Notes under the pieces: model-generated | What the model was told of the DNA's origin: nothing | Databases searched by the model: none | What the model saw: only the letters and a program-made list of their open reading frames with translations | Virus record (IMG/VR): IMGVR_UViG_3300050034_000403 | Coordinates: 25,229 to 89,228 of that record | Source of the DNA: a virus | DNA: 64,000 bases | Strand: one strand, 5' to 3' | Position numbers and translations under genes: made by a program | Shown: one piece after another, positions 10,396-64,000 of the stretch | Layout: the number at the start of each line of letters is the position of its first letter | Position numbering within the stretch: the stretch's first letter is position 1

Positions 10396-10503
10396 CTACG
10401 CCTTGATGGCGCTGCGCTTGCCGCGGCCCTTGCGACCACGACTCTTGCGGCCCTTCTTCAGATGGCTTGCCTTCATTGCACTAGCCTTGCGACGTTTTGC
10501 CAT
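10396..10503 (-). CDS. 35-residue protamine-like basic protein
   Basis: Begins MAKRRKASAMKASHLKKG and ends RGKRSAIKA; about half the residues are Lys or Arg, with no acidic residues. Start chosen at 10503 because AAGGAGG lies 9 nt upstream. It has its own promoter (10615-10643) and the conserved leader element copy 2, so a 35-codon gene has about 110 nt of dedicated 5-prime control. Likely binds DNA or RNA, perhaps packaged or condensing; inference. Confidence 0.7.
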   Translation of the reverse strand: MAKRRKASAMKASHLKKGRKSRGRKGRGKRSAIKA

Positions 10504-10530
10504 GATGTTTTCCTCCTTGGTGTGAAATAG

Positions 10531-10596
10531 AAATGGCCCAAGGCCATTTCTGGTCTTGAGCCATTGCTGATTCCCCAAGGAGGGGGGGCATGCCGC
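10531..10596 (-). ncRNA. Structured leader RNA element, copy 2
   Basis: Minus-strand leader of the 35-residue basic gene. It has GCATGCC, a CCCC-TCCTT-GGGG hairpin, then AATGGCTCAAG, a 12-nt loop and CTTGGGCCATT forming an 11-bp stem with one G-U pair. The internal AAATGGCC-TTG-GGCCATTT hairpin is mutually exclusive with that stem. Lies 27 nt before the start codon. Confidence 0.7.
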
Positions 10597-10614
10597 TCAA
10601 AAGATTCTGTTAGA

Positions 10615-10643
10615 GCTATAAGCCGAATTCTTTTTCGCGTCAA
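10615..10643 (-). promoter_or_regulatory. Sigma70-type promoter for the 35-residue basic gene
   Basis: Minus strand TTGACG, 17 nt, TATAGC. It lies immediately upstream of leader element copy 2. The region (TTGACGCGA, AATTCGG) is similar to that upstream of copy 3 at 16461-16489. Confidence 0.6.
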
Positions 10644-10652
10644 GTGTTATTT

Positions 10653-10892
10653 TTACAAAATCGTTTCGTCTACATCCAGAATCTTACGAATCTCTTCCGC
10701 TTGTGCATCAGAAATCTTAGTGCGCTGTTCGAGATTTACTCCCTGCACAGAACCCTGGTTATACTGAACAACCATCTTTCCGGTTGTTCTTGTAGCTTGG
10801 AGTAACTCGTCGGTCTGCTGAATATCGGCAGGTAATTCGACGCTTACTTCGGTCAAATAGTAGTCTTTTTGAACCTTGATTTGGACTGCCAT
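10653..10892 (-). CDS. Hypothetical protein
   Basis: 79 residues (MAVQIKVQKDYYLTEVSVEL to LDVDETIL). Mixed beta then helix; no motif recognised. Follows the portal stop by 9 nt and has AAGGAG before its ATG. It is likely cotranscribed with portal and ends near the promoter of the small basic gene. A virion accessory role is possible from context. Confidence 0.55.
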   Translation of the reverse strand: MAVQIKVQKDYYLTEVSVELPADIQQTDELLQATRTTGKMVVQYNQGSVQGVNLEQRTKISDAQAEEIRKILDVDETIL

Positions 10893-10901
10893 GTCTTCTC
10901 C

Positions 10902-12977
10902 TTAGCTTTCGCTTACTACCGTGCGCGGTTCTCCACCTTGCGCGCCTTTTTGCTTGATCTTGGGCGGCTTTCCTCCGCTCGATGGCCGACCGCCACCAGC
11001 GCCCTTGCCACCGCCGCCGCCCTTACCACCGCCCTTACCACCGCCACCTTCTTCTGGTGGCTGAATTCCGAGCTGCTTCATAAACTGCTGTGCCGCAGCA
11101 GCCGCAAGAATCTTCAGCTTTTGCGATTCCAGCTCTTCGTTGAACCATTTTTCATGTTCGGTATTTCCCTGCACCTCGCCATAGTTGGGGATATCGAGGT
11201 TCTTCATCACCGTCGACCAAGAAATCGGCGCACCACCACGCTTCAGTTGCAGCATCATCAATTGACGTTGCATCTGCGTCACCTTCAACAGCGTGCTCGG
11301 CACCGATACCAACCGAATCTGCTTGGCAAACCAACGCGCACGCGTCAGCTGGTTGTAATGCGATGGATCTTCGGGAAAATTACCGCTGATCATCTCGTCG
11401 GGCATGTGGCTCGGAACCAGATCGTCTGGATTAAAGTCAAAAACCTCTCGTGCAATGCTGTCTGGTCCCACATACTCCATGATTCGTCCGACGTTGAACC
11501 ATTGCAGGATCAGGAATTTCATGCGGTAACCAACCGCCTTATTGCCTTTTTCAATGCGTGCGGCAATGCCCTTTGCAATTGGGCCAATGGACTCCAGCAT
11601 CTTGTCGGCCGTGTCATTGGCAATGTTCATCTTCATGTTCTGAAGATTGCCAAGATCCGTCAGGCCCAACTGCGACTGCTTGCACTCCTTCAAATACTTC
11701 AAAAACGTGAAATGCTCCGAGCTAACACGAACTTCTTCAGGAAGAATCGACTGAAGGATGTCTCTCGGCTTGCCGTCTACGCCGTAGCGCACGTCTTGCT
11801 CAAAGATGTCAAAATGCTCAATCTTTGCGCCGCCTGTGGCGGTGTGGTCATAACCGATCGGCGGATTCAACGTAATCGTGATTACGTCGTCTATCTTGCG
11901 CTCGATCTTGCGCGTCGTTGTTTCAATCGATGCCACATCACCTACTAAAGAACGTCCCAGAGGCTCCCAAGCCCAATCATCCACGGTGTACTGAATCACT
12001 GGAATCTTTCCATCCCAGTCAAAGCTTGGTCCGTCGTACATGGGCCGATCGAGTCCAGTGGAAGTAATGATGAGTCGCAGGTTCGGATACACGCGGCAAT
12101 CTTCTACCGTCGCCGGTCGCATGTACGCCAAGCCGTTGCGCATGCCGCCAAAAATCATTTGGCCAACATAGGGAACTTTGTAGAACCAACTGGTGCCAAC
12201 ATCTCCCATTGGCAATTCATAACCGGTATTGTTGATTCGGAGGTCGCGAATAAACGTGTAGCGAATTTCGCAATAAAGATTGCCAAAACTCCGGTTTGGG
12301 CCACCATAGCGGAAGCGCTCGGCGTAATCCATCCGTCGCGCTTGAACCTGCGTTTTGTAACTACGCGGTCCAACTGTCTGCAATTGTCCCTGGAAAAGCG
12401 GGAAACGACCGTGAGCTTCTGCGATCGGCATGTAGTCGTAGACCGTGACGGCGTAAGCATCCTGCACGTCGTTGCTTCGAGGAATCTGAACAGGAACTAC
12501 ATCCAGCAGGCCCAACGCATCGAACACCATCTTGCGTTCGCCATAGCCATATTCGTCCGCGCGCACCTTTGGCCACAGATAACCGATACCGGTAACGCTG
12601 GCATACTGCAAAACTTTCAAAATCTGGAAAGGAAAATCGGATTCCAGGTAGACGCACTTTGATACCTTGGTCAGCATCTCTGCCATTTGCTTATATGCAG
12701 GGATATCCGACCCATATCCGGCAATTTCGCGCACTTCGGAAAGAGTTTCGCAGAACTTGCGGATGTCGTATTTCAGTTCATTGGTGACAAGAATTGACCG
12801 CGACTTATCTCTGAAGATGGCATCGAAAATGCGCATATTCGTGCCCAGGTTCTTGTAGCATGTCTGCCCTTCAAGAAACCCTTCACCTTCTTCGATTTGT
12901 TCCTCGACCCATCCAGCACGCGAACTCGGCGAGGATTCAAACTTTGGGCATTGCCAGCAGGTAGTTTCTAGCTCCAT
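10902..12977 (-). CDS. Portal protein
   Basis: 691 residues from ATG 12977 (MELETTCWQCPKF), preferred over an in-frame TTG 9 nt upstream because of GAGGG spacing. Length and position between terminase and scaffold fit the large portals of P22-like or podo-like phages. Supporting segments: KVRADEYGYGERKMVFDALG, IPVIQYTVDDWAWEPLGRSL (typical portal wing or stem region), and VASIETTTRKIERKID. The C-terminus has Gly/Lys-rich repeats (GGGGKGGGKGGGGGKGAGGG), an unusually long flexible tail. Forms the dodecameric ring through which DNA enters the head. Confidence 0.82.
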   Translation of the reverse strand: MELETTCWQCPKFESSPSSRAGWVEEQIEEGEGFLEGQTCYKNLGTNMRIFDAIFRDKSRSILVTNELKYDIRKFCETLSEVREIAGYGSDIPAYKQMAEMLTKVSKCVYLESDFPFQILKVLQYASVTGIGYLWPKVRADEYGYGERKMVFDALGLLDVVPVQIPRSNDVQDAYAVTVYDYMPIAEAHGRFPLFQGQLQTVGPRSYKTQVQARRMDYAERFRYGGPNRSFGNLYCEIRYTFIRDLRINNTGYELPMGDVGTSWFYKVPYVGQMIFGGMRNGLAYMRPATVEDCRVYPNLRLIITSTGLDRPMYDGPSFDWDGKIPVIQYTVDDWAWEPLGRSLVGDVASIETTTRKIERKIDDVITITLNPPIGYDHTATGGAKIEHFDIFEQDVRYGVDGKPRDILQSILPEEVRVSSEHFTFLKYLKECKQSQLGLTDLGNLQNMKMNIANDTADKMLESIGPIAKGIAARIEKGNKAVGYRMKFLILQWFNVGRIMEYVGPDSIAREVFDFNPDDLVPSHMPDEMISGNFPEDPSHYNQLTRARWFAKQIRLVSVPSTLLKVTQMQRQLMMLQLKRGGAPISWSTVMKNLDIPNYGEVQGNTEHEKWFNEELESQKLKILAAAAAQQFMKQLGIQPPEEGGGGKGGGKGGGGGKGAGGGRPSSGGKPPKIKQKGAQGGEPRTVVSES

Positions 12978-12982
12978 TGCGG

Positions 12983-13555
12983 TCAACCCTCGATTTCATT
13001 CAGTACGGCAAAATTTCCAAACAATTTCACCGCTGCCAGGTTGTACAACACAGCAGCTTCCTCGGGACTGCTACAGATTCCGAGATGATTGTTCTTCCCG
13101 TTGTGCTCAATCTGTGCTGCGAATTTCTTTCCTTTTTTTACTACGCCCCTATATCCCGTACTGCTTTTGTACTTGCGATTAGCTGCGTTTTGACTTGACG
13201 TTGCTACGCGCATTTCGGAACAGCGACAATCCAGTCCGTTCCCGTGGATGTGATCAACCTGAACGCCTTTGCTGACCCCCATAATTACGCGGTGCAACGA
13301 AACGTGTTTTCCATACTCCTCGCGCAATTCTTCCGTCGAAAGTGCTTCTGCATAAAACTTTTTCTTGCTTGGATGTAAATGCCAAAGAAATTGTGCCGCC
13401 AATTCCTTTTTGTCTGCATCGATAAGCGCTTCATGCCCATCGCCAAAAGGAATATGAACGACACCGTCGTCGTCAGTTATCCATGTCGCAGCAAACTCGG
13501 CCCGCTTTTTGCGGAAGTATTCTTTGCGTCCGCGAATTGTTTCCGGTTGAATCAA
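12983..13555 (-). CDS. HNH-AP2 homing endonuclease
   Basis: 190 residues. HNH core: VSLHRVIMGVSKGVQVDHIH, then GNGLDCRCSEMRVATSSQNA and ANRKYKSS. A C-terminal AP2 domain follows: GYRGVVKKGKKFAAQIEHNG, then SSPEEAAVLYNLAAVKLFG. Inserted between the portal and the small gene upstream of it, in the same orientation. Homing endonucleases cleave an intron-less or gene-less allele and spread by repair. Same architecture as 4641-5192, so this phage carries at least two members. Confidence 0.88.
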   Translation of the reverse strand: MIQPETIRGRKEYFRKKRAEFAATWITDDDGVVHIPFGDGHEALIDADKKELAAQFLWHLHPSKKKFYAEALSTEELREEYGKHVSLHRVIMGVSKGVQVDHIHGNGLDCRCSEMRVATSSQNAANRKYKSSTGYRGVVKKGKKFAAQIEHNGKNNHLGICSSPEEAAVLYNLAAVKLFGNFAVLNEIEG

Positions 13556-13574
13556 GCCTTCACCTGATAACTTC

Positions 13575-13599
13575 TATTGCGCATAGTAGGCAAAATTTG
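13575..13599. terminator. Palindrome between HNH gene and terminase-proximal gene
   Basis: The intergenic 13556-13644 contains the near-perfect palindrome TAGGCAAAATTTGCCTA. It could end the upstream minus-strand transcript or bind a protein. No T-run follows, so termination is uncertain. Confidence 0.35.
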
Positions 13600-13644
13600 C
13601 CTACACGTCTACGCTAATTTCACATAGCGTAAGTTATGCGTAAC

Positions 13645-14034
13645 CTATCGTCCTTTCTCATACGCTTCTGCATGCAGATAGCTTTCGCGCCGCATTTTTG
13701 TCTTGTCCGGTCGATTGCCATACGATTCCAAATGTTGGCGCAAGAAGTCACGGTTCAGGTTATTCCGTGCGTTTGCCATCTGGTGGCGCATGTAGCTGCG
13801 CAAGTTGGCGCGGATGGGTCCTTCAATCATTTCTCGCTGCTCGTCTTCCATCTGGTACTTGTAGGCTTCCCACTTACGCATCCGTTCCGACCACACTTCG
13901 GCTTCATGCATGGTGTTGCAGACAATCTTTTCGAAACCCGCTGGTGCCGGGAACTGTTCAGGAAGGCCCATACGGATTTCGCCGCGAGTTCCATCGTGCC
14001 AAAACACGATTTTGGTTGCTAACTGTGCGTTCAA
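13645..14034 (-). CDS. Small protein coupled to terminase
   Basis: 129 residues from a TTG at 14034. That start overlaps the terminase stop as TTGA and has GGGAGG 6 nt upstream, better than an ATG at 14070. Sequence LNAQLATKIVFWHDGTRGEI, then LPEQFPAPAGFEKIVCNT and a charged helical C-terminus (MEDEQREMIEGPIRANLRSY). Phages of this type often have such a conserved protein between terminase and portal. Function unknown. Confidence 0.6.
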   Translation of the reverse strand: MNAQLATKIVFWHDGTRGEIRMGLPEQFPAPAGFEKIVCNTMHEAEVWSERMRKWEAYKYQMEDEQREMIEGPIRANLRSYMRHQMANARNNLNRDFLRQHLESYGNRPDKTKMRRESYLHAEAYEKGR

Positions 14035-20409: not shown

Positions 20410-21028
20410 GTTGCGTCTATTCGGCGCACTGTAGAAGCTGTTTGATTGTTGCGCTTATCCAGCGCACTATGACTATCTTGCAACCTTTTTATAGCCAAAA
20501 AGCCGTGATGATTCTCGTGTTGCATCTACTCGATGCACTGAAACTGCCTTGTGACTTTGTGCTATTCCTTGACGCGTTGCGCTTTCTCGGCGCACTCATA
20601 CGTCTATAAATATCCCTTGTGTATTATTGCGCTTATTCAGTGTATTGTTGCGCTTATCCAGCGCACTCCTACTTTGTCGCACATGTTGCATCTCTCCGAT
20701 GCACTTTGACTGTACACCCCTACCTATCCATGTTGCATCTGCTCGATGCACTCATACTGTGCTCCTCAACCTATCCATGTTGCGCCTATGCGGTGCACTG
20801 AAACCGCATTACTGCGAAATCCAAGGCTCACGTACGTTGCATCTTCTCGATGCACTTCAACCAGTCTGCTATACAGCAGACAAAAACGAATGCCAATGGA
20901 GGTTGCATCTGTTCGATGCACTCATACGGATTTGGTACGGGATGCTGTTGTTGCGCTTATCCAGCGCACTAGAACATCTTGTCAGCTCATTCTTCAGGTT
21001 GCGCCTGCTCGACGCACTCATATGACAC
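20410..21028. CRISPR. Array 1: degenerate CRISPR-like hairpin array
   Basis: At least 12 units at 20410, 20448, 20519, 20576, 20626, 20647, 20685, 20732, 20779, 20836, 20902, 20950 and 20998. Each keeps the 5-prime core (GTTGC, stem, 5-nt loop, stem, ACT) but most have lost the 3-prime tail. Start-to-start spacing is irregular (21-71 nt). Stems vary with compensation: TGCATC/GATGCA, TGCGCT/AGCGCA, TGCGCT/GGCGCA, TGCGCC/GGTGCA, TGCGCT/AGTGTA. Only 20448 and 20519 keep a full 37-nt unit. Open frames through it are artefacts. Reads as a decayed version of arrays 2-4. Confidence 0.75.
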
Positions 21029-21071
21029 CTCAATACTTTGCGCCAAGCCCCCGCGTTGTCAACAAATTTCT

Positions 21072-34964: not shown

Positions 34965-35176
34965 ACATGCAGATCATCTTGCGGCAACTCGACAGCGACG
35001 ACTTTGGAAAGATGCTGAAAGTCTGCAAAAGCTCACGCGAACGGTTTTACCTGGAAGCCGCGCGCATTAATCCAAACTTTGAATACCACATCGATCTGCC
35101 CGGCCCCGATGGCCCTACCAAACCCGTCGACATGCAAACGTGGCTTGCCGACAAAGAAAGGTTCCCCGACGACTGA
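34961..35176 (+). CDS. Hypothetical protein
   Basis: 71 residues MNMQIILRQLDSDDFGKMLK, then CKSSRERFYLEAARINPNFE. Coupled to the zinc-ribbon gene by a 4-nt overlap. No family. Confidence 0.5.
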   Translation: MNMQIILRQLDSDDFGKMLKVCKSSRERFYLEAARINPNFEYHIDLPGPDGPTKPVDMQTWLADKERFPDD

Positions 35177-35204
35177 GCAAAATGATGGCACAATGGGAGG
35201 TCAA

Positions 35205-35912
35205 ATGACGGAAAAAGTACACTTTCGCAAGGATCTGACAGGCAAAGTCTTTGGTCGGCTTACTGTAACGGGATACTCGCATCAAGCCGGAAAGTCATCG
35301 GTTTGGAACTGCCTTTGCGTCTGCGGAAATACGACTCAAGTTCGCCAAAGCAATCTTACGAGGGGCGGCGTTGTTTCCTGTGGTTGCCGCAGAAAAGAAA
35401 TTCAAAATCACATCAAGTTCTATTCTCCAGAATCTGCTCTTACGCATGGCTGCGCTCGCACACGGTTAGGAAAAAGGACTGCTGTCTATACGATATGGTG
35501 TGGGATGAAACGGCGTTGTTCTTCACCAAAATGCAAATGCTTTTCGTACTACGGCGGACGTGGAATCAAAGTCTGCAAACGATGGGAAAAGTTTGAAAAC
35601 TTCCTGGCGGATATGGGTAAGCCAAAACCGGGAATGACACTTGACCGCTTTCCGGATAAAGACGGCGATTATGAACCGACAAATTGCCGATGGGCTACAT
35701 GGAAAGAGCAGGCAAACAATCAACGCCCCCGTTCATTTTTCATTGACAAGCCTGAACATGCTGACATTTTGCAGAAAATCTTATCGCTGCACTCTTTGGG
35801 CAAAACTACCAGAGATATTGCAGACGTGCTGAATTCTATGAAAATTATGTCACCCCGTGGAAAATGCTGGTGGGGATCAGGCATTGATCGTATCTTGCGC
35901 AATCATCGATAG
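35205..35912 (+). CDS. Putative homing endonuclease with Cys-rich N-terminus
   Basis: 235 residues from ATG 35205 with GGGAGG upstream. N-terminal KVFGRLTVTGYSHQ and a zinc group WNCLCVCGNTTQV then GGVVSCGCRRKE. The second part has the signature YTIWCGMKRRCSS, FSYYGGRGIKVCKRW, FENFLADMGKPKPG, LDRFPDKDGDYEPTNCRWAT, seen in a widespread family of phage homing-endonuclease-like proteins. The C-terminus may be a helix-turn-helix (HSLGKTTRDIADVLNSM). Probably mobile. Confidence 0.7.
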   Translation: MTEKVHFRKDLTGKVFGRLTVTGYSHQAGKSSVWNCLCVCGNTTQVRQSNLTRGGVVSCGCRRKEIQNHIKFYSPESALTHGCARTRLGKRTAVYTIWCGMKRRCSSPKCKCFSYYGGRGIKVCKRWEKFENFLADMGKPKPGMTLDRFPDKDGDYEPTNCRWATWKEQANNQRPRSFFIDKPEHADILQKILSLHSLGKTTRDIADVLNSMKIMSPRGKCWWGSGIDRILRNHR

Positions 35913-35919
35913 GAGAAAA

Positions 35920-36600
35920 ATGGAAGCTGTTTCATATATGCGGTGTTCTGGCGAAAGCCAAGTTCTCGGCGATACGTGGGAACGTCAGCGCGCAGTTATC
36001 GTTAAATATGCCGCCGCCAATGAAATTGCAATTGTCGATGAATTCCGGGATGAAGGCGTAACAGGCAAGATGGAGTTGGAAGGACGTGCCGGTCTTTCAG
36101 CCTGCATACAATTCATCCGTGAAAAGGGAATCAAGCTTGTTTTGGTTGAGTCCAGCGACAGATTGGCCCGCGACATGATCGTGGCAGAAGTTGTTGTACG
36201 CGAGTTTCAAAAGATTGGAGTTCGCGTCATTTCTGCGTCTGGCGGTATCGATCTAACCGAGGGAGACGATTCCAACCCCACGGCTAAACTAATTCGTCAG
36301 ATTCTAGCGGCCGTCGCCGAGTTTGATCGCTGCGTAATCGTACTTAAGCTACGCGGTGCGCGCCAGCGCAAAAAGGCTAGGGGAGAACGAGGAGATGGCC
36401 GGCACGCCTTTGGAGAAAAGCCTGGAGAAGCCGTGGTTCTCGCACAGATTCGTGCGTTAAAGGCCCAAGGAGAGACGATCAGGACCATTGCCGACACCTT
36501 GAACGCCGCCGCCATTCCAACGCGCATGGGGGGCACCTGGAAGGCCGGGACGGTGGCAAAGATCCTTGCTCGTGAGAAATTTCACAGCGCTTGCGCGTGA
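35920..36600 (+). CDS. Serine recombinase (resolvase family), intact catalytic site
   Basis: 226 residues from ATG 35920 with AGGAG. Resolvase N-terminal domain: VSYMRCSGESQ has the catalytic Ser and Arg, LVLVESSDRLARD is the second conserved region, then AEFDRCVIVLKLRGARQRKK. C-terminal helix-turn-helix (IRALKAQGETIRTIADTLNA). Short relative to large serine integrases, so a resolvase or invertase. It directly precedes array 2, an arrangement worth noting. Confidence 0.85.
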   Translation: MEAVSYMRCSGESQVLGDTWERQRAVIVKYAAANEIAIVDEFRDEGVTGKMELEGRAGLSACIQFIREKGIKLVLVESSDRLARDMIVAEVVVREFQKIGVRVISASGGIDLTEGDDSNPTAKLIRQILAAVAEFDRCVIVLKLRGARQRKKARGERGDGRHAFGEKPGEAVVLAQIRALKAQGETIRTIADTLNAAAIPTRMGGTWKAGTVAKILAREKFHSACA

Positions 36601-36663: not shown

Positions 36664-37967
36664 GTTGCATCTATGCGATGCACTTCAACTGCATTGCTAC
36701 CGATATGGTAGCGCTGTCGCTACGGATTTCGCGTTGCACTTATCCAGTGCACTTCAACTGCATTACTACGCTGGTGGGTCCTTGTAAGTTGCATCTACGC
36801 GATGCACTCAAACTGCTTTGATGCTTGCTACCTTTTGGCACATTTCCATTTTTCCAGTAGTTGCATCTATGCGATGCACTGAGACTATTTTGCGACACGG
36901 AGTTGAATCAAGAAGCAATAAGCCTGTTGCATCTATGCGATGCACTTTGACTGCTTTGCTATCCCACTAATAAGCCTTTGCAGGATCATTTTCCCAGTTG
37001 CATCTGCTCGATGCACTTTAACTACCTTGCGACCATGTGAGAATGCTGGTGGCTCTCTCTTGACGAAGTTGCATCTGCTCGATGCACTCAAACTACATTG
37101 CGACACGGCTACGGAAGCCGTCTTGCTGCTGCTATGAATGTTGCATCTGTTCGATGCACTTTAACTACCTTGCGACGACTGTTTATGCTTTTGAACTCAC
37201 ACACTACGACCGTTGCATCTGTTCGATGCACTGAAACTACATTGCGACAGCAGAAAAAATCGAGAAATGATTCCGATACCATGTTGCATCTGCTCGATGC
37301 ACTGAAACTACCTTGCGACGAAACCTGGAAAACCTGTCCACCGGGACCGTAATAGTTGCATCTGCTCGATGCACTAAAACTATCTTGCGACGTTCGACTT
37401 CAGCCAAGAGAGACATGACCGCGAGTGTTGCATCTGTTCGATGCACTTAAACTATCTTGCGACCCTATAATTTGTCCAGACACTAGCGTCCACAACCGTT
37501 GCATCTGTTCGATGCACTGAAACTGCCTTGCGACGCATGTACTCCCAAAGCGTGTACTCTTGATGCAAGTTGCATCTGTTCGATGCACTGAAACTACATT
37601 GCGGCTTGGTGAGCCCTTGGAAAGTGTTAGCAGGTCATCAAGGTTGCATCTGTTCAATGCACTGAAACTATCTTGCGGCATGATCGAGCAGTTGAGCAAT
37701 ACAAGGTGCGATACGCGTTGCATCTGTTCGATGCACTTTAACTACCTTGCGACACGAAATTGCGGGACTCTTTTACCAGGTGATGGATGTTGCATCTGTT
37801 CGATGCACTGAAACTACATTGCGACCTAAACATCACCATGCAGGACAAGCTCGACCTCCAGTTGCATCTGTTCGATGCACTGAAACTACATTGTGACTCG
37901 CCACCTTCGGAAGAAACAAGAAGACCAGAAGTTGCATCTGTTCGATGCACTGAAACTACATTGCGGC
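36664..37967. CRISPR. Array 2: CRISPR-like array, 19 repeats
   Basis: 37-nt repeats starting at 36664, 36733, 36788, 36860, 36926, 36997, 37068, 37140, 37212, 37283, 37355, 37427, 37498, 37569, 37643, 37717, 37789, 37861 and 37931. The main form on the plus strand is GTTGCATCTGTTCGATGCAC followed by TGAAACTACATTGCGAC. Spacers are 33-37 nt and all different (two left-end ones are shorter). Period 69-74 nt. The left five repeats diverge (tails ending TTGCTAC or GATGC, and one with the compensated stem TGCACT/AGTGCA), while the right 14 are nearly constant. By usual CRISPR behaviour the leader is then on the right, and transcription would be leftward. No cas gene is nearby. Confidence 0.9.
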
Positions 37968-38103
37968 TGCGCTCATTATAACGCTTTGCGATTGAAGAAG
38001 ATCAAGGACGTTTTTCGCGAACCTCGCAAATCTGCGCTCTTCTAGTTGGGATGCTCGATACAATGCCCTCATTATCTCCTTCAAAATCATTTTCTTACGC
38101 CTT
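37968..38103. promoter_or_regulatory. Candidate leader of array 2
   Basis: 136 nt between the conserved end of the array and the terminator of the lysis unit. Moderately AT-rich with TTTTTCGCGAACC and CATTATAACGC. No coding frame. If the array is transcribed leftward, this is where its leader promoter should be. Confidence 0.4.
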
Positions 38104-38144
38104 GCGCGAACCTCCCGCCTTTTTCCGGCCGCTTAGGGTTCGCG
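38104..38144 (-). terminator. Terminator of the endolysin unit
   Basis: GCGAACC and GGTTCGC arms flank a GC-rich centre about 10 nt after the endolysin stop. Confidence 0.5.
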
Positions 38145-41252: not shown

Positions 41253-41994
41253 GTTGCATCTATCCGATGCACTGCAACTGCATTGCTACGATGTCCATCC
41301 TAGCCAGTTTCCCATTGTTGGTTGCATCTACGCGATGCACTCAAACTACCTTGCGACCGGAGACTACGGTGTTGCCCACCCTGATCTAGTTGTTGCATCT
41401 GTTCGATGCACTTAAACTACCTTGCTACCCCACGCCCACGTTGCTTTGAAGCGGTTGCCGTTGTTGCATCTATCCGATGCACTAAGACTATCTTGCTACA
41501 CGTTTGCAGATTACCGTTATCGCATCTGGGGCGTTGCATCTATGCGATGCACTTTGACTGCTTTGTTACCTGGCAGTACACGCATGCGTGACAGTTCGAA
41601 CAGTTGCATCTACTCGATGCACTTCAACTGCTTTGCTACGAAGCGGATGTGCTATTCGCTGGGTATCTTAATGGTTGCATCTACGCGATGCACTCAAACT
41701 GCCTTGCGACCAAATGCTGGAATTTGTGAATGCAGCTTTAAAACGTTGCATCTGTTCGATGCACTTCAACTACCTTGCGACATTGACCGAAGGTCAAGCA
41801 ACTCATGCTAAGTACGTTGCATCTACTCGATGCACTGAAACTACCTTGCGACCAGCGAGACAGGTTCATCACTGGCGAGTCGTTGAAGTTGCATCTACGC
41901 GATGCACTCAAACTACATTGCGACCAGTATTTCGACCGCATGAATCGCTTTGCCATGGTTGCATCTGCTCGATGCACTTCAACTACTGGGAGTG
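41253..41994. CRISPR. Array 3: CRISPR-like array, 11 repeats
   Basis: Repeats start at 41253, 41321, 41392, 41463, 41533, 41603, 41674, 41745, 41816, 41888 and 41958. Period 68-72 nt, spacers about 33-35 nt. Core GTTGC, stem TGCATC/GATGCA constant, loop variable (TATCC, TACGC, TGTTC, TACTC, TATGC, TGCTC). Tail ACTTGC.AC varies between GCGAC and GCTAC. The last repeat loses its tail at about 41983. Frames through it (for example 41675-42139) are translation of repeats, not genes. Confidence 0.9.
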
Positions 41995-50485: not shown

Positions 50486-51279
50486 GCCGCTTCCTCGCTC
50501 GCGCTGCTTTCGCCGCAGCAAACCTTTAAAATCTCGCCCATTTCTTGGATGTGCGCCGCGAATAACGTGCGCAGCGCTTCCAGCTCTTCCACGCTGTGTG
50601 CTTCTGTGACTGCGCGCGTCAACCGTGGAATCGACTCGGCCATAAAGCCCACCAGCGTTGGCTTGTCGTGGTATTCGGCAAGCAGCAGCTCCAGCGCATA
50701 GCCGGGGTCGTCAATGCCGTGCTCGTGTTGCCATTCCTCAAGGCCGCTCTCGATGAACTCGCGTTGCGACTGTCTAACGCTCCATTTCACCGAGGTGCTT
50801 CTGTCTTTGGGCGACGTATTCTCGGCCAATGCCGCATACTTCCCCACTTCGCTTTGGAACTCTCGCGCCTGCATGGTGGCGGCTGCATTCAGCAAGGCAG
50901 GGTCAGCACGCATCGCAGAAGGGGCCTTGGCCAATTCCTCGGCGTTTTCAATCGTCATTGAAAGAAATTGCTCTTTGCTGAGCATCTGCAACTGCTCCGC
51001 CAAACCCACCATCATGTACCAGGTTGAGCGGCCAATGCCTTTGCTGGCGCGGTAGCTCTTTTCGTCGGGATAACCCAACCGTTCCCAGCCGTTGTAGCGC
51101 TTGATGAAGTAGCCCTCCCAGCCAATCAGCATTGACCGCTTGTTCAGCGCCACCCACGATTCGGTAATTGCTCGATCACTCTCGTGCAGCCGTTCATCAA
51201 GACTTTTCGCCGGAGCAATCCCACCTGTGTTCACGAGCATCAGAGCGTGCTCGTTCGCTTGAAACGCTTCTGTACCCAT
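50482..51279 (-). CDS. Hypothetical protein
   Basis: 265 residues from ATG 51279 with GAGGAGA upstream. Helical throughout: LDERLHESDRAITESWVALN, KGIGRSTWYMMVGLAEQLQM and LSKEQFLSMTIENAEELAKA. The GRSTWYMMVGLAEQ segment could be a helix-turn-helix, and the helical arrangement resembles ParB-like or replication-accessory proteins. No catalytic motif. Function unknown. Confidence 0.5.
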   Translation of the reverse strand: MGTEAFQANEHALMLVNTGGIAPAKSLDERLHESDRAITESWVALNKRSMLIGWEGYFIKRYNGWERLGYPDEKSYRASKGIGRSTWYMMVGLAEQLQMLSKEQFLSMTIENAEELAKAPSAMRADPALLNAAATMQAREFQSEVGKYAALAENTSPKDRSTSVKWSVRQSQREFIESGLEEWQHEHGIDDPGYALELLLAEYHDKPTLVGFMAESIPRLTRAVTEAHSVEELEALRTLFAAHIQEMGEILKVCCGESSASEEAA

Positions 51280-57314: not shown

Positions 57315-58592
57315 TTAGGCGGCGGGAATTTCTCGCGTTGCTTTATTGCGGCACTCGTCCAAAAAATCTGCCCAGGCTTGCATCATTTGTCGACGCGGTT
57401 CAAGATATTGCGCATAGTTGTAAGCCTGTGAAACCGTATCGCCAGCTCCAGAAACATGGGAAAGTTGCGTTTCAATGTGAAGATGATTGAAACCTTTCTC
57501 GTGCAGATAGGTCGATGCAAGACCTCGCCATCCATGCCCTGTCATCGTCCGATGATAGCCAAGGCGTTTCAGCGTATGCAGCAGGATGTTGCTGCAGATC
57601 GTCTTTGATGCGTGGCCACCAATACTCGGAAACATATATTCTCCAGAACCAGAGAGTTCGTAGAGTCGCTTGAACGCATCAAGACTCTGCCGCGAAAGTG
57701 GAACCAAGTGCGCTCTCTTTTCCTGTCTCCTGCCTTTCATCCGTTGCGGAGGAATAGCCCACAGCTTTTTTTCCCAATCGATTTCTTCCCAGCGTCCAGA
57801 AAGTAATTCTGTAGTACGCAAGAAGGTCAGACTCATCAGTTTCAGAGCAAGACACGTCACGGGATAGCCGGTGTTTTGATCCATCTTCTGAATTAGAGCA
57901 GGCAATTCAGAGAGCGAAATACGCGCAAAATGCCCTTTCACGGTTCTGGAAAGAATGTCCTCTGAACGGATACTCGTGGCGGGATTCAGACTGTTCCCGT
58001 CCAATATTCCATTATTCTGCCCCCAGGTAAAAATCTGCCGAATCGTCTGCAAATTGCGTCGAGCACTATCATGTGAACCCCGATCATCTGTTGCTCTAAT
58101 CGCATCCACAATATCCAGGCGCTGGATGTCTTCCGGGCGCATTTTACCAAGTCGCGGAATCGTATCGCCTTCCAGCCGACGTTGAACTCTATCGATATAC
58201 TTTTGGTTTTTGTCGTTTTTCCACCAAGCAAACCATTGCCGCGCCAGATTTTCAAAGTTCGGCTCGGTCGCTGTCTTTTTTTTCTTCGCAGCCAGCGCTT
58301 CTCGCAGCTCATGCTTGGCTTCCTGGCGCTCTGCCATAGGATCGGTGCCAGCGGCCAGCTTTGCCCGCGCCTCGGCGTGGAGGAGCCGTGCCTGGGCCAA
58401 AGATACGTCAGGATATTTGCCAAAGGCCATTTGCTTCTGCTTGCCTTCACAGCGGTACTTCCAGCGCCACAGCTTTCCACCAGTCGGTGCGATGAGCAAA
58501 TGAAGACCGCCGTGGTCAAAAATCTTGTAGGGCTTGGGCTTAACCGCTGCCTTTTCACACTGCAAGTTTGAAAGTTCACCCACTATTTTCAT
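57315..58592 (-). CDS. int: Tyrosine recombinase, P4-type phage integrase
   Basis: 425 residues from ATG 58592, chosen for AAGGAACAGG upstream; a longer start at 58703 is unlikely. N-terminal DUF4102 domain: LQCEKAAVKPKPYKIFDHGG, LHLLIAPTGGKLWRWKYRCE, MAFGKYPDVSLAQAR. Catalytic residues: FLRTTELLSGRWEEID (Arg), MTGHGWRGLASTYLHE (His-x-x-Arg), LSHVSGAGDTVSQAYNYAQY (His and nucleophile Tyr). P4-type enzymes usually integrate into tRNA or tmRNA genes. Places the phage among temperate ones. Confidence 0.95.
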   Translation of the reverse strand: MKIVGELSNLQCEKAAVKPKPYKIFDHGGLHLLIAPTGGKLWRWKYRCEGKQKQMAFGKYPDVSLAQARLLHAEARAKLAAGTDPMAERQEAKHELREALAAKKKKTATEPNFENLARQWFAWWKNDKNQKYIDRVQRRLEGDTIPRLGKMRPEDIQRLDIVDAIRATDDRGSHDSARRNLQTIRQIFTWGQNNGILDGNSLNPATSIRSEDILSRTVKGHFARISLSELPALIQKMDQNTGYPVTCLALKLMSLTFLRTTELLSGRWEEIDWEKKLWAIPPQRMKGRRQEKRAHLVPLSRQSLDAFKRLYELSGSGEYMFPSIGGHASKTICSNILLHTLKRLGYHRTMTGHGWRGLASTYLHEKGFNHLHIETQLSHVSGAGDTVSQAYNYAQYLEPRRQMMQAWADFLDECRNKATREIPAA

Positions 58593-58931
58593 GATTTCTA
58601 CCTGTTCCTTCTCCCCGATGGCGTATTGGGGGCACACCGCATGAGTCAAAGTGTACCAAAAAATGCCCCCAGAAAAGCGCCGTTTACAGATGATCGTCCC
58701 CAACTCTCCTAAACGCTAATGATTCAAAAAGTCGATAGGCAAAAAGGAGAAATCCTTTGTTCTAAATGGGTTAGAAGGGTAAAAACAGGGGAGAAACGTC
58801 GAGATAAGTTTAGATTATATATGTGGAGTTGTGTCCTACCACGGAATACTTAGAACGAACAAAACAAAGGACTTATTCCTTGCTTTTTAAGAAGTGCCCC
58901 CAAAAATGTCCCAGCATCGGATTTTCTTTCA

Positions 58932-63392: not shown

Positions 63393-64000
63393 GTTGCATC
63401 TATTCGATGCACTAAAACCGCATTGCTACGGTGGAATGTCCACTTCTTCGTCAGACGTATACAGTTGCATCTATCCGATGCACTAAAACTGCGTTGCTAC
63501 AATAATCTCCCAATGGAGTGGGAACCCGACTATGTTGCACTTGTCCAGTGCACTAAAACCGCGTTACTGCATCGGCTTTTTGTATTTCTCCGTGTTGACG
63601 ACAGGTTGCACTTGTCCAGTGCACTAAAACTGCGTTGCTACGCCTGTCCATAAAGAATAAGCCTGAGGACATTAAGTTGCACTTGTCCAGTGCACTAAAA
63701 CTGCGTTGCTACGCCCAATGTCTCCGATGATGCTCTCTGGACGAACGGGTTGCACTTGTCCAGTGCACTAAAACTTCGTTGCTACGAGGTGCCGAGATGG
63801 GCAAAGACAACATTTATGTGGTTGCATCTATCCGATGCACTAAAACTTCGTTGCTACCACCCAAGATGGTGAACACCGATGGGCGCTCCACCGTTGCATC
63901 TATGCGATGCACTAAAACTGCGCTGCTACCGTCTCAGACCGTTACAGGCATCAACGTATAAATGTTGCACTTGTCCAGTGCACTAAAACTACGTTGCTAC
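63393..64000. CRISPR. Array 4: CRISPR-like array, 9 repeats visible and continuing
   Basis: Repeats start at 63393, 63464, 63534, 63605, 63676, 63749, 63821, 63893 and 63964; the last ends exactly at the window edge. Period 70-73 nt, spacers 33-36 nt. Two stems alternate within one array: TGCATC/GATGCA with loops TATTC, TATCC and TATGC, and TGCACT/AGTGCA with loop TGTCC. Tail mostly AAAACTGCGTTGCTAC. Both bases of the stem change together, so the stem is under selection. Confidence 0.9.

Follow-up and report, generated by a model that had tools for sequence, protein, structure and literature searches.

A multi-array CRISPR system, probably related to Cas12m, carried by soil phages of Acidobacteria

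Introduction

Type V CRISPR systems of subtype V-M (Cas12m), formerly V-U1 and also found under the old name Cas12u1, are already known. Characterised Cas12m proteins carrying D-E-D, H-D-D or N-D-D residues in their RuvC site bind dsDNA without cutting it and act as roadblocks, and V-U systems are typically devoid of acquisition genes (PMC11013384). Phages, for their part, are known to carry repeat decoys (reviewed in PMC11656645). Here we describe phages of Acidobacteria that carry a relative of V-M with several arrays; it came to attention as an apparent CRISPR array without cas genes. We estimate a probability of roughly 85% that a phage-borne type V system, related to subtype V-M, underlies the arrays, a reading built on sequence comparison.

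Results

The window, i.e. the whole 64,000-nt stretch of DNA analyzed here, corresponds to positions 25229-89228 of an 89,228-bp IMG/VR virus record and derives from a soil phage with an acidobacterial host. The reported array and its leader are as follows.

36664-37967, minus strand: CRISPR array A, 19 repeats of 37 nt and 18 spacers, leader end at 37967 and degenerate trailer end at 36664
37968-38114, minus strand: leader of array A, with TATAAT some 10 nt ahead of the first repeat, and motif copies

The initial annotation had described CRISPR geometry, with a period of 69-74 nt and spacers of 33-37 nt. The geometry was borne out by the 19 repeats of 37 nt. Two steps near the left end, of 55 and 66 nt, depart from the period and correspond to short spacers of 18 and 29 nt; the spacer length holds for 15 of 18 spacers, the other three measuring 18, 29 and 32 nt. 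The suggested type V-like crRNA, with a hairpin directly before the spacer, is likewise seen on the minus strand, where the repeat consensus is GTCGCAATGTAGTTTCAGTGCATCGAACAGATGCAAC and the 3' end consists of the hairpin GCATC-GAACA-GATGC followed by AAC and then the spacer. Stem pairing is kept by covariation: across 240 distinct repeats of the family, 98-99% of stem cells pair and compensatory swaps occur in both directions (CG to TA and TA to CG; e.g. GCATC..GATGC to GCACT..AGTGC), showing that the hairpin is under selection.

Array A does not show the near-identity by which CRISPR repeats are recognized, with 16 distinct repeats among 19, a mean pairwise identity of 0.85 and the most degenerate copies at the left; repeat identity reaches 1.00 within arrays of the same repeat family in G017, G019 and G026. 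Many differences between the repeats of one array are unusual for an active CRISPR array. As the repeats of array A and of two further arrays, B and D (listed below), vary at many positions within the array, some of their units may be dead.

Within the leader, the motif GAGGTTCGCGAAAA is found at 38012-38025 with a near-copy at 38101-38114. The motif is in excess over shuffles and, in a comparison of leaders, also precedes other phage arrays and one bacterial array (L027). A consensus scan of the array A leader for sigma-70 promoters returned no full promoter, and an Rfam search detected tRNA only. Two partial serine-recombinase genes are located directly left of array A (35079-36600), and a tyrosine integrase is encoded at 57315-58703.

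Array A had been taken for a lone array. The same repeat was found in three further arrays of the window and one elsewhere in the record, i.e. four arrays in the window and five in the 89-kb record.

20410-21034, minus strand: array D, about 8 repeats, highly degenerate and unevenly spaced
41253-41994, minus strand: CRISPR array B, 11 repeats, spacer order identical in four sister phages
63393-64000, minus strand: CRISPR array C with at least 9 repeats, truncated at the contig end
record positions 1538-1981 (outside the window), plus strand: fifth array, same repeat

Two spacers of array A have accepted targets.

37464-37497, minus strand: spacer 7, 32/34 match to contig C336 of the Acidobacteriaceae MAG bog_218, 5'-TTC flank
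37392-37426, minus strand: spacer 8, 29/35 match to phage IMGVR_UViG_3300022872_000004, 5'-TTC flank

Spacer 7 matches C336 with 2 mismatches and 30 bases running. This contig also encodes the conjugation protein TrbI and belongs to a conjugative element. A spacer from a second phage lineage targets the same C336 gene with 1 mismatch and a TTC flank; the gene (L136 453-1337) is of unknown function, lies near trbI and is thus hit independently by two phage lineages. Spacer 8 has 6 mismatches; the gene whose start codon its target spans matches a DNA-primase PHROG. Among the remaining phages of the family, one spacer matches 3300050034_000025 with 4 mismatches and others match Acidobacteriaceae contigs with 2-4 mismatches, including one within the gene for a RepB-type primase. 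A shuffled control against the fetched phages gave zero matches at up to 8 mismatches, and a larger null of 23,157 shuffled spacers yielded none at up to 6.

Overall, ten phage spacers have accepted targets (two of array A and eight others), and 5'-TTC adjoins the target for nine of the ten, against a chance of about 1/64 per site. One site was counted per spacer and the list was picked by mismatch count rather than flank, bar the exclusion of a single 6-mismatch host-genome match (L147) lacking TTC and judged to be at chance level. The one target of the ten without TTC is located in a conserved housekeeping gene. Four matches of a G005 spacer in a conserved host methyltransferase gene, without TTC, were judged to reflect conservation and not targeting. 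The proposed spacer search was productive among fetched phages and Acidobacteriaceae contigs, but concatenated spacers found no match in INPHARED phages or PLSDB plasmids, and most spacers of the window have no known target. The initial annotation had named spacers that never match a mobile element as grounds for giving up the CRISPR reading; the matches found, with their TTC motif, contradict this, and on such target evidence the arrays are proper CRISPR.

Guides of the same kind are also directed at these phages.

L027 3957-4276: bacterial five-repeat array of an Acidobacteriales MAG, between respiratory-chain genes and a receptor-like gene
50514-50546, minus strand: protospacer of L027 spacer 1 with 3 mismatches and a TCC flank, where two genes of the window phage meet

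The bacterial array shares the repeat family and leader motif of the phage arrays; an effector search in its MAG found none. Since its spacers match many phages of the family, including a phage cas12m gene in one case (7 mismatches), hosts and phages appear to use the same class of guides on each other.

The observation that no cas gene is visible in 64 kb stands, and it extends to the other 25 kb of the record. A Cas1 Pfam search found none in the record, and PADLOC run on 97 + 76 ORFs (window and rest of the record) identified no cas effector, cas1, cas2 or cas4, its matches being limited to HTH-type CasR/Csa3 and CARF. The suggested search for a RuvC-type gene in the rest of the genome was negative as well, a Cas12m-like profile matching neither the window nor the other 25 kb.

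An exact search of bacterial genomes with 22 nt of the repeat gave no match, and the route to an effector was a degenerate tandem-hairpin pattern run on bacterial genomes. One hit of this pattern, in Rhizobium (L026), was rejected as a coding repeat. On a contig of MAG Acidobacteriaceae bog_218 (L025), repeats are found directly after a 689-aa ORF, and two repeats adjoin. The ORF matches Cas12m structures (UnCas12m4a, E 2.4e-8, profile 1.4e-10; also Cas12m) as well as PADLOC Cas12u1 (1e-23). Homologues with 55-61% identity are present in six phages of the family, directly upstream of a same-repeat array where examined, and the effector occurs in three Acidobacteriaceae genomes, out of 300 genomes sampled. 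The effector open frames span 704-770 aa. Their best PDB match is Cas12m and their best PADLOC match a Cas12u1 or Cas12f profile at equal score, in the C-terminal half only; the N-terminal ~330 residues have no significant match. A RuvC domain and a zinc ribbon are recognizable in the effector of a sister phage. In the effector tree, phages fall on one side of a branch and hosts on the other with moderate support (87/91); an AlphaFold prediction of the effector on six sequences was too poor for use (pLDDT 49). A diverged host effector (G170) adjoins a short array of the same hairpin shape with another stem, TGGCTC...GAGTCA:

L092 7871-8040: 3-repeat array with the altered stem, adjacent to a cas12m-like gene of an Acidobacteriaceae contig (476 kb)

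Outside these lineages, plasmid pPRO1 of Pelobacter propionicus (L134 3056-5473) encodes a 664-aa zinc-ribbon protein followed by four 37-nt repeats. This protein is the nearest plasmid relative of the effector (27% identity), and the region is a putative, unannotated type V-like locus.

The RuvC residues read D-E-D in three phages, the sister phage included, E-E-D in two phages and D-E-N in the host protein of L025. Effectors retaining the intact D-E-D triad might cleave target DNA, an alternative that departs from the explanation favored here in the last step only. Because E-E-D and D-E-N occur in the same family, catalysis is not conserved in it, and characterised Cas12m proteins with D-E-D bind without cutting, as do those with other triads. 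We consider cutting unlikely, albeit the most credible of the alternatives. Silencing by DNA binding is most likely, since characterised Cas12m proteins of varied triads behave in this manner; by family resemblance, the effector would work like Cas12m.

The 40 kb that the sister phage IMGVR_UViG_3300022849_000036 shares with the window are for the most part 92-99.7% identical; identity falls to 84.5% in one short stretch.

10471-12495 of IMGVR_UViG_3300022849_000036: cas12m
12706-13987 of IMGVR_UViG_3300022849_000036: array directly downstream of cas12m, homologous to array C

Its Cas12m-like gene (770 aa) lies directly upstream of this array, which has five trailer-side spacers in common with the truncated array C. 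Because the sister phage carries cas12m upstream of the homologous array, the missing gene most likely lies just beyond the contig end of the window, about 1-2 kb away and upstream of array C. As the gene is absent from the record, its presence in the window phage rests on synteny with one sister. Exact IMG/VR scans for the contig-end spacer of array C found no continuing contig, and scans for two leader-proximal spacers found neither continuation nor target. Of the options first put forward for the effector, a location elsewhere on the same phage is thus probably right, by sister-phage synteny, and an effector of an unknown kind need not be assumed, given the Cas12m-like character of the sister-phage protein with its RuvC and zinc ribbon. 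The picture of CRISPR without Cas looks like a contig-end effect, produced by an assembly break inside an array. In three other records of 26,902 bp (G019, G021 and G022), 22 identical repeats start about 90 bp from the contig end, and an effector may also sit just off the contig there.

Alternatively, the arrays could be orphans in phages without an effector of their own, their crRNAs loading onto a Cas12m-like protein of the host. In favor of this, the effector is encoded in Acidobacteriaceae chromosomes and MAGs, and the repeat and leader motif recur in the bacterial L027 array; three of the four arrays in the window lie at a distance from any effector, and none was seen in 18 of the 24 phage records fetched. 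All phage records are fragments, however, the effector was found in only 1% of the sampled host genomes, and at the equivalent position a nearly identical sister phage encodes an effector itself. Such supply in trans is improbable next to an effector encoded by the phage itself.

A phage-encoded system also accords with the turnover of the arrays. Three sister phages agree in the spacer order of array A, bar one replaced and one deleted unit, and array D is identical in three phages. Array C and the cas12m-adjacent array of the sister share trailer-end spacers and differ in leader-end spacers, which in this comparison of two phages is the polarity expected of spacer acquisition; leader-end turnover was seen only in the cas-adjacent array. 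Repeat identity shows a similar tendency, amounting to 0.84-1.00 in cas-adjacent arrays and less, down to 0.62, in the majority of the distant ones, with exceptions such as G019 and G003, records without an effector.

A complete acquisition module was found in one phage, IMGVR_UViG_3300022824_000016, which shares structural genes with the window phage at 70-82% DNA identity. Here cas12m, cas4, cas1, cas2, a leader and 11 identical repeats stand in one row.

L028 10594-12535 (IMGVR_UViG_3300022824_000016): cas4-cas1-cas2, between the Cas12m-like gene and the array

The best matches of the three genes are Cas4c, Cas1c and Cas2c, of the type I-C kind. Cas1 is absent from the other five effector-carrying phage records, including that of the sister phage with cas12m.

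A further explanation holds that the repeats mimic host CRISPR repeats as decoy or anti-CRISPR RNA and occupy the host effector, with the spacers as passive fill. Phage repeat decoys have precedent, the role would suit a degenerate array of single hairpins like array D, and hairpins of this class are also turned against these phages by the host. For a decoy, 18 unique spacers of near-constant length would be needless; moreover, array A spacers match mobile elements with TTC beside the target, and sister phages encode a full effector and, in one case, a full acquisition module. We regard a decoy function as very improbable. Finally, the strong within-array repeat variation and some irregular spacings might point to a satellite or structural repeat family outside CRISPR, its units separated by unrelated sequence. 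This reading is ruled out by the TTC-flanked targets, the linkage to Cas12m-like genes and the cas4-cas1-cas2 operon beside 11 identical repeats.

Discussion

The phage-borne type V system favored here would operate as follows. The arrays would be transcribed leftwards from their leaders and the transcripts cut into crRNAs carrying the conserved hairpin before the spacer. The Cas12m-like protein would take each crRNA to 5'-TTC protospacers in competing phages and conjugative elements of the same Acidobacteria, where binding, presumably in place of cutting, would block the rival's gene expression or its replication. New spacers would be added chiefly to the array adjoining the effector gene, and arrays A, B and D may represent older static libraries readable by the same effector.

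These findings document a phage lineage whose CRISPR system probably acts by silencing and, in one member, is accompanied by a full acquisition module. Phage and host guides share one hairpin class and are directed at phages and conjugative elements, so that each set can be compared with the other; inter-element competition by DNA-binding Cas12 thereby becomes directly testable. They also illustrate how an assembly break inside an array can give a false picture of an effector-less CRISPR array; with this ordinary explanation, the puzzle of CRISPR without Cas is removed.

Among known systems, V-M is closest. Common to both are a single effector with C-terminal RuvC and zinc ribbon, whose nearest sequences are Cas12m structures and the Cas12u1 profile, a crRNA hairpin adjoining the spacer, a variable RuvC triad, a 5' T- or C-rich target motif (here TTC, for 9 of 10 phage spacers) and carriage by mobile elements (PMC11656645). 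The systems differ in that the open frames are 704-770 aa here as opposed to ~600 aa, that the ~330 N-terminal residues are unmatched and the nearest plasmid protein is only 27% identical, and that there are several arrays per phage genome. Unlike V-U systems, which typically lack acquisition genes (PMC11013384), one locus has cas4-cas1-cas2; this module resembles that of type I-C in its best matches, yet it is joined to a Cas12m-like effector and not to a type I-C cascade. We tentatively raise the possibility, with somewhat less than even confidence, of a separate type V subtype of Acidobacteria phages. Its DNA-binding effector, related to Cas12m and 700-770 aa long, would have a new N-terminal region; an I-C-like cas4-cas1-cas2 module would accompany it in one phage or more; and several arrays, scattered over each genome, would be used in trans to silence rival phages and conjugative elements, with hosts using the same class of system against the phages. 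Viral mini-arrays and orphan arrays (PMC11656645) similarly equip viruses with guides against their relatives and against other mobile elements, but the arrays described here are long (up to 22 repeats), number several per genome and have an effector encoded by the lineage. Multi-array phages from landfill (PMC12607003) carry up to six arrays, some of them likewise far from any cas gene; the six-array phage combines Cas9, Cas12b2-like and Cas12f1-like effectors, whereas the phages of Acidobacteria have one repeat family and one effector type.
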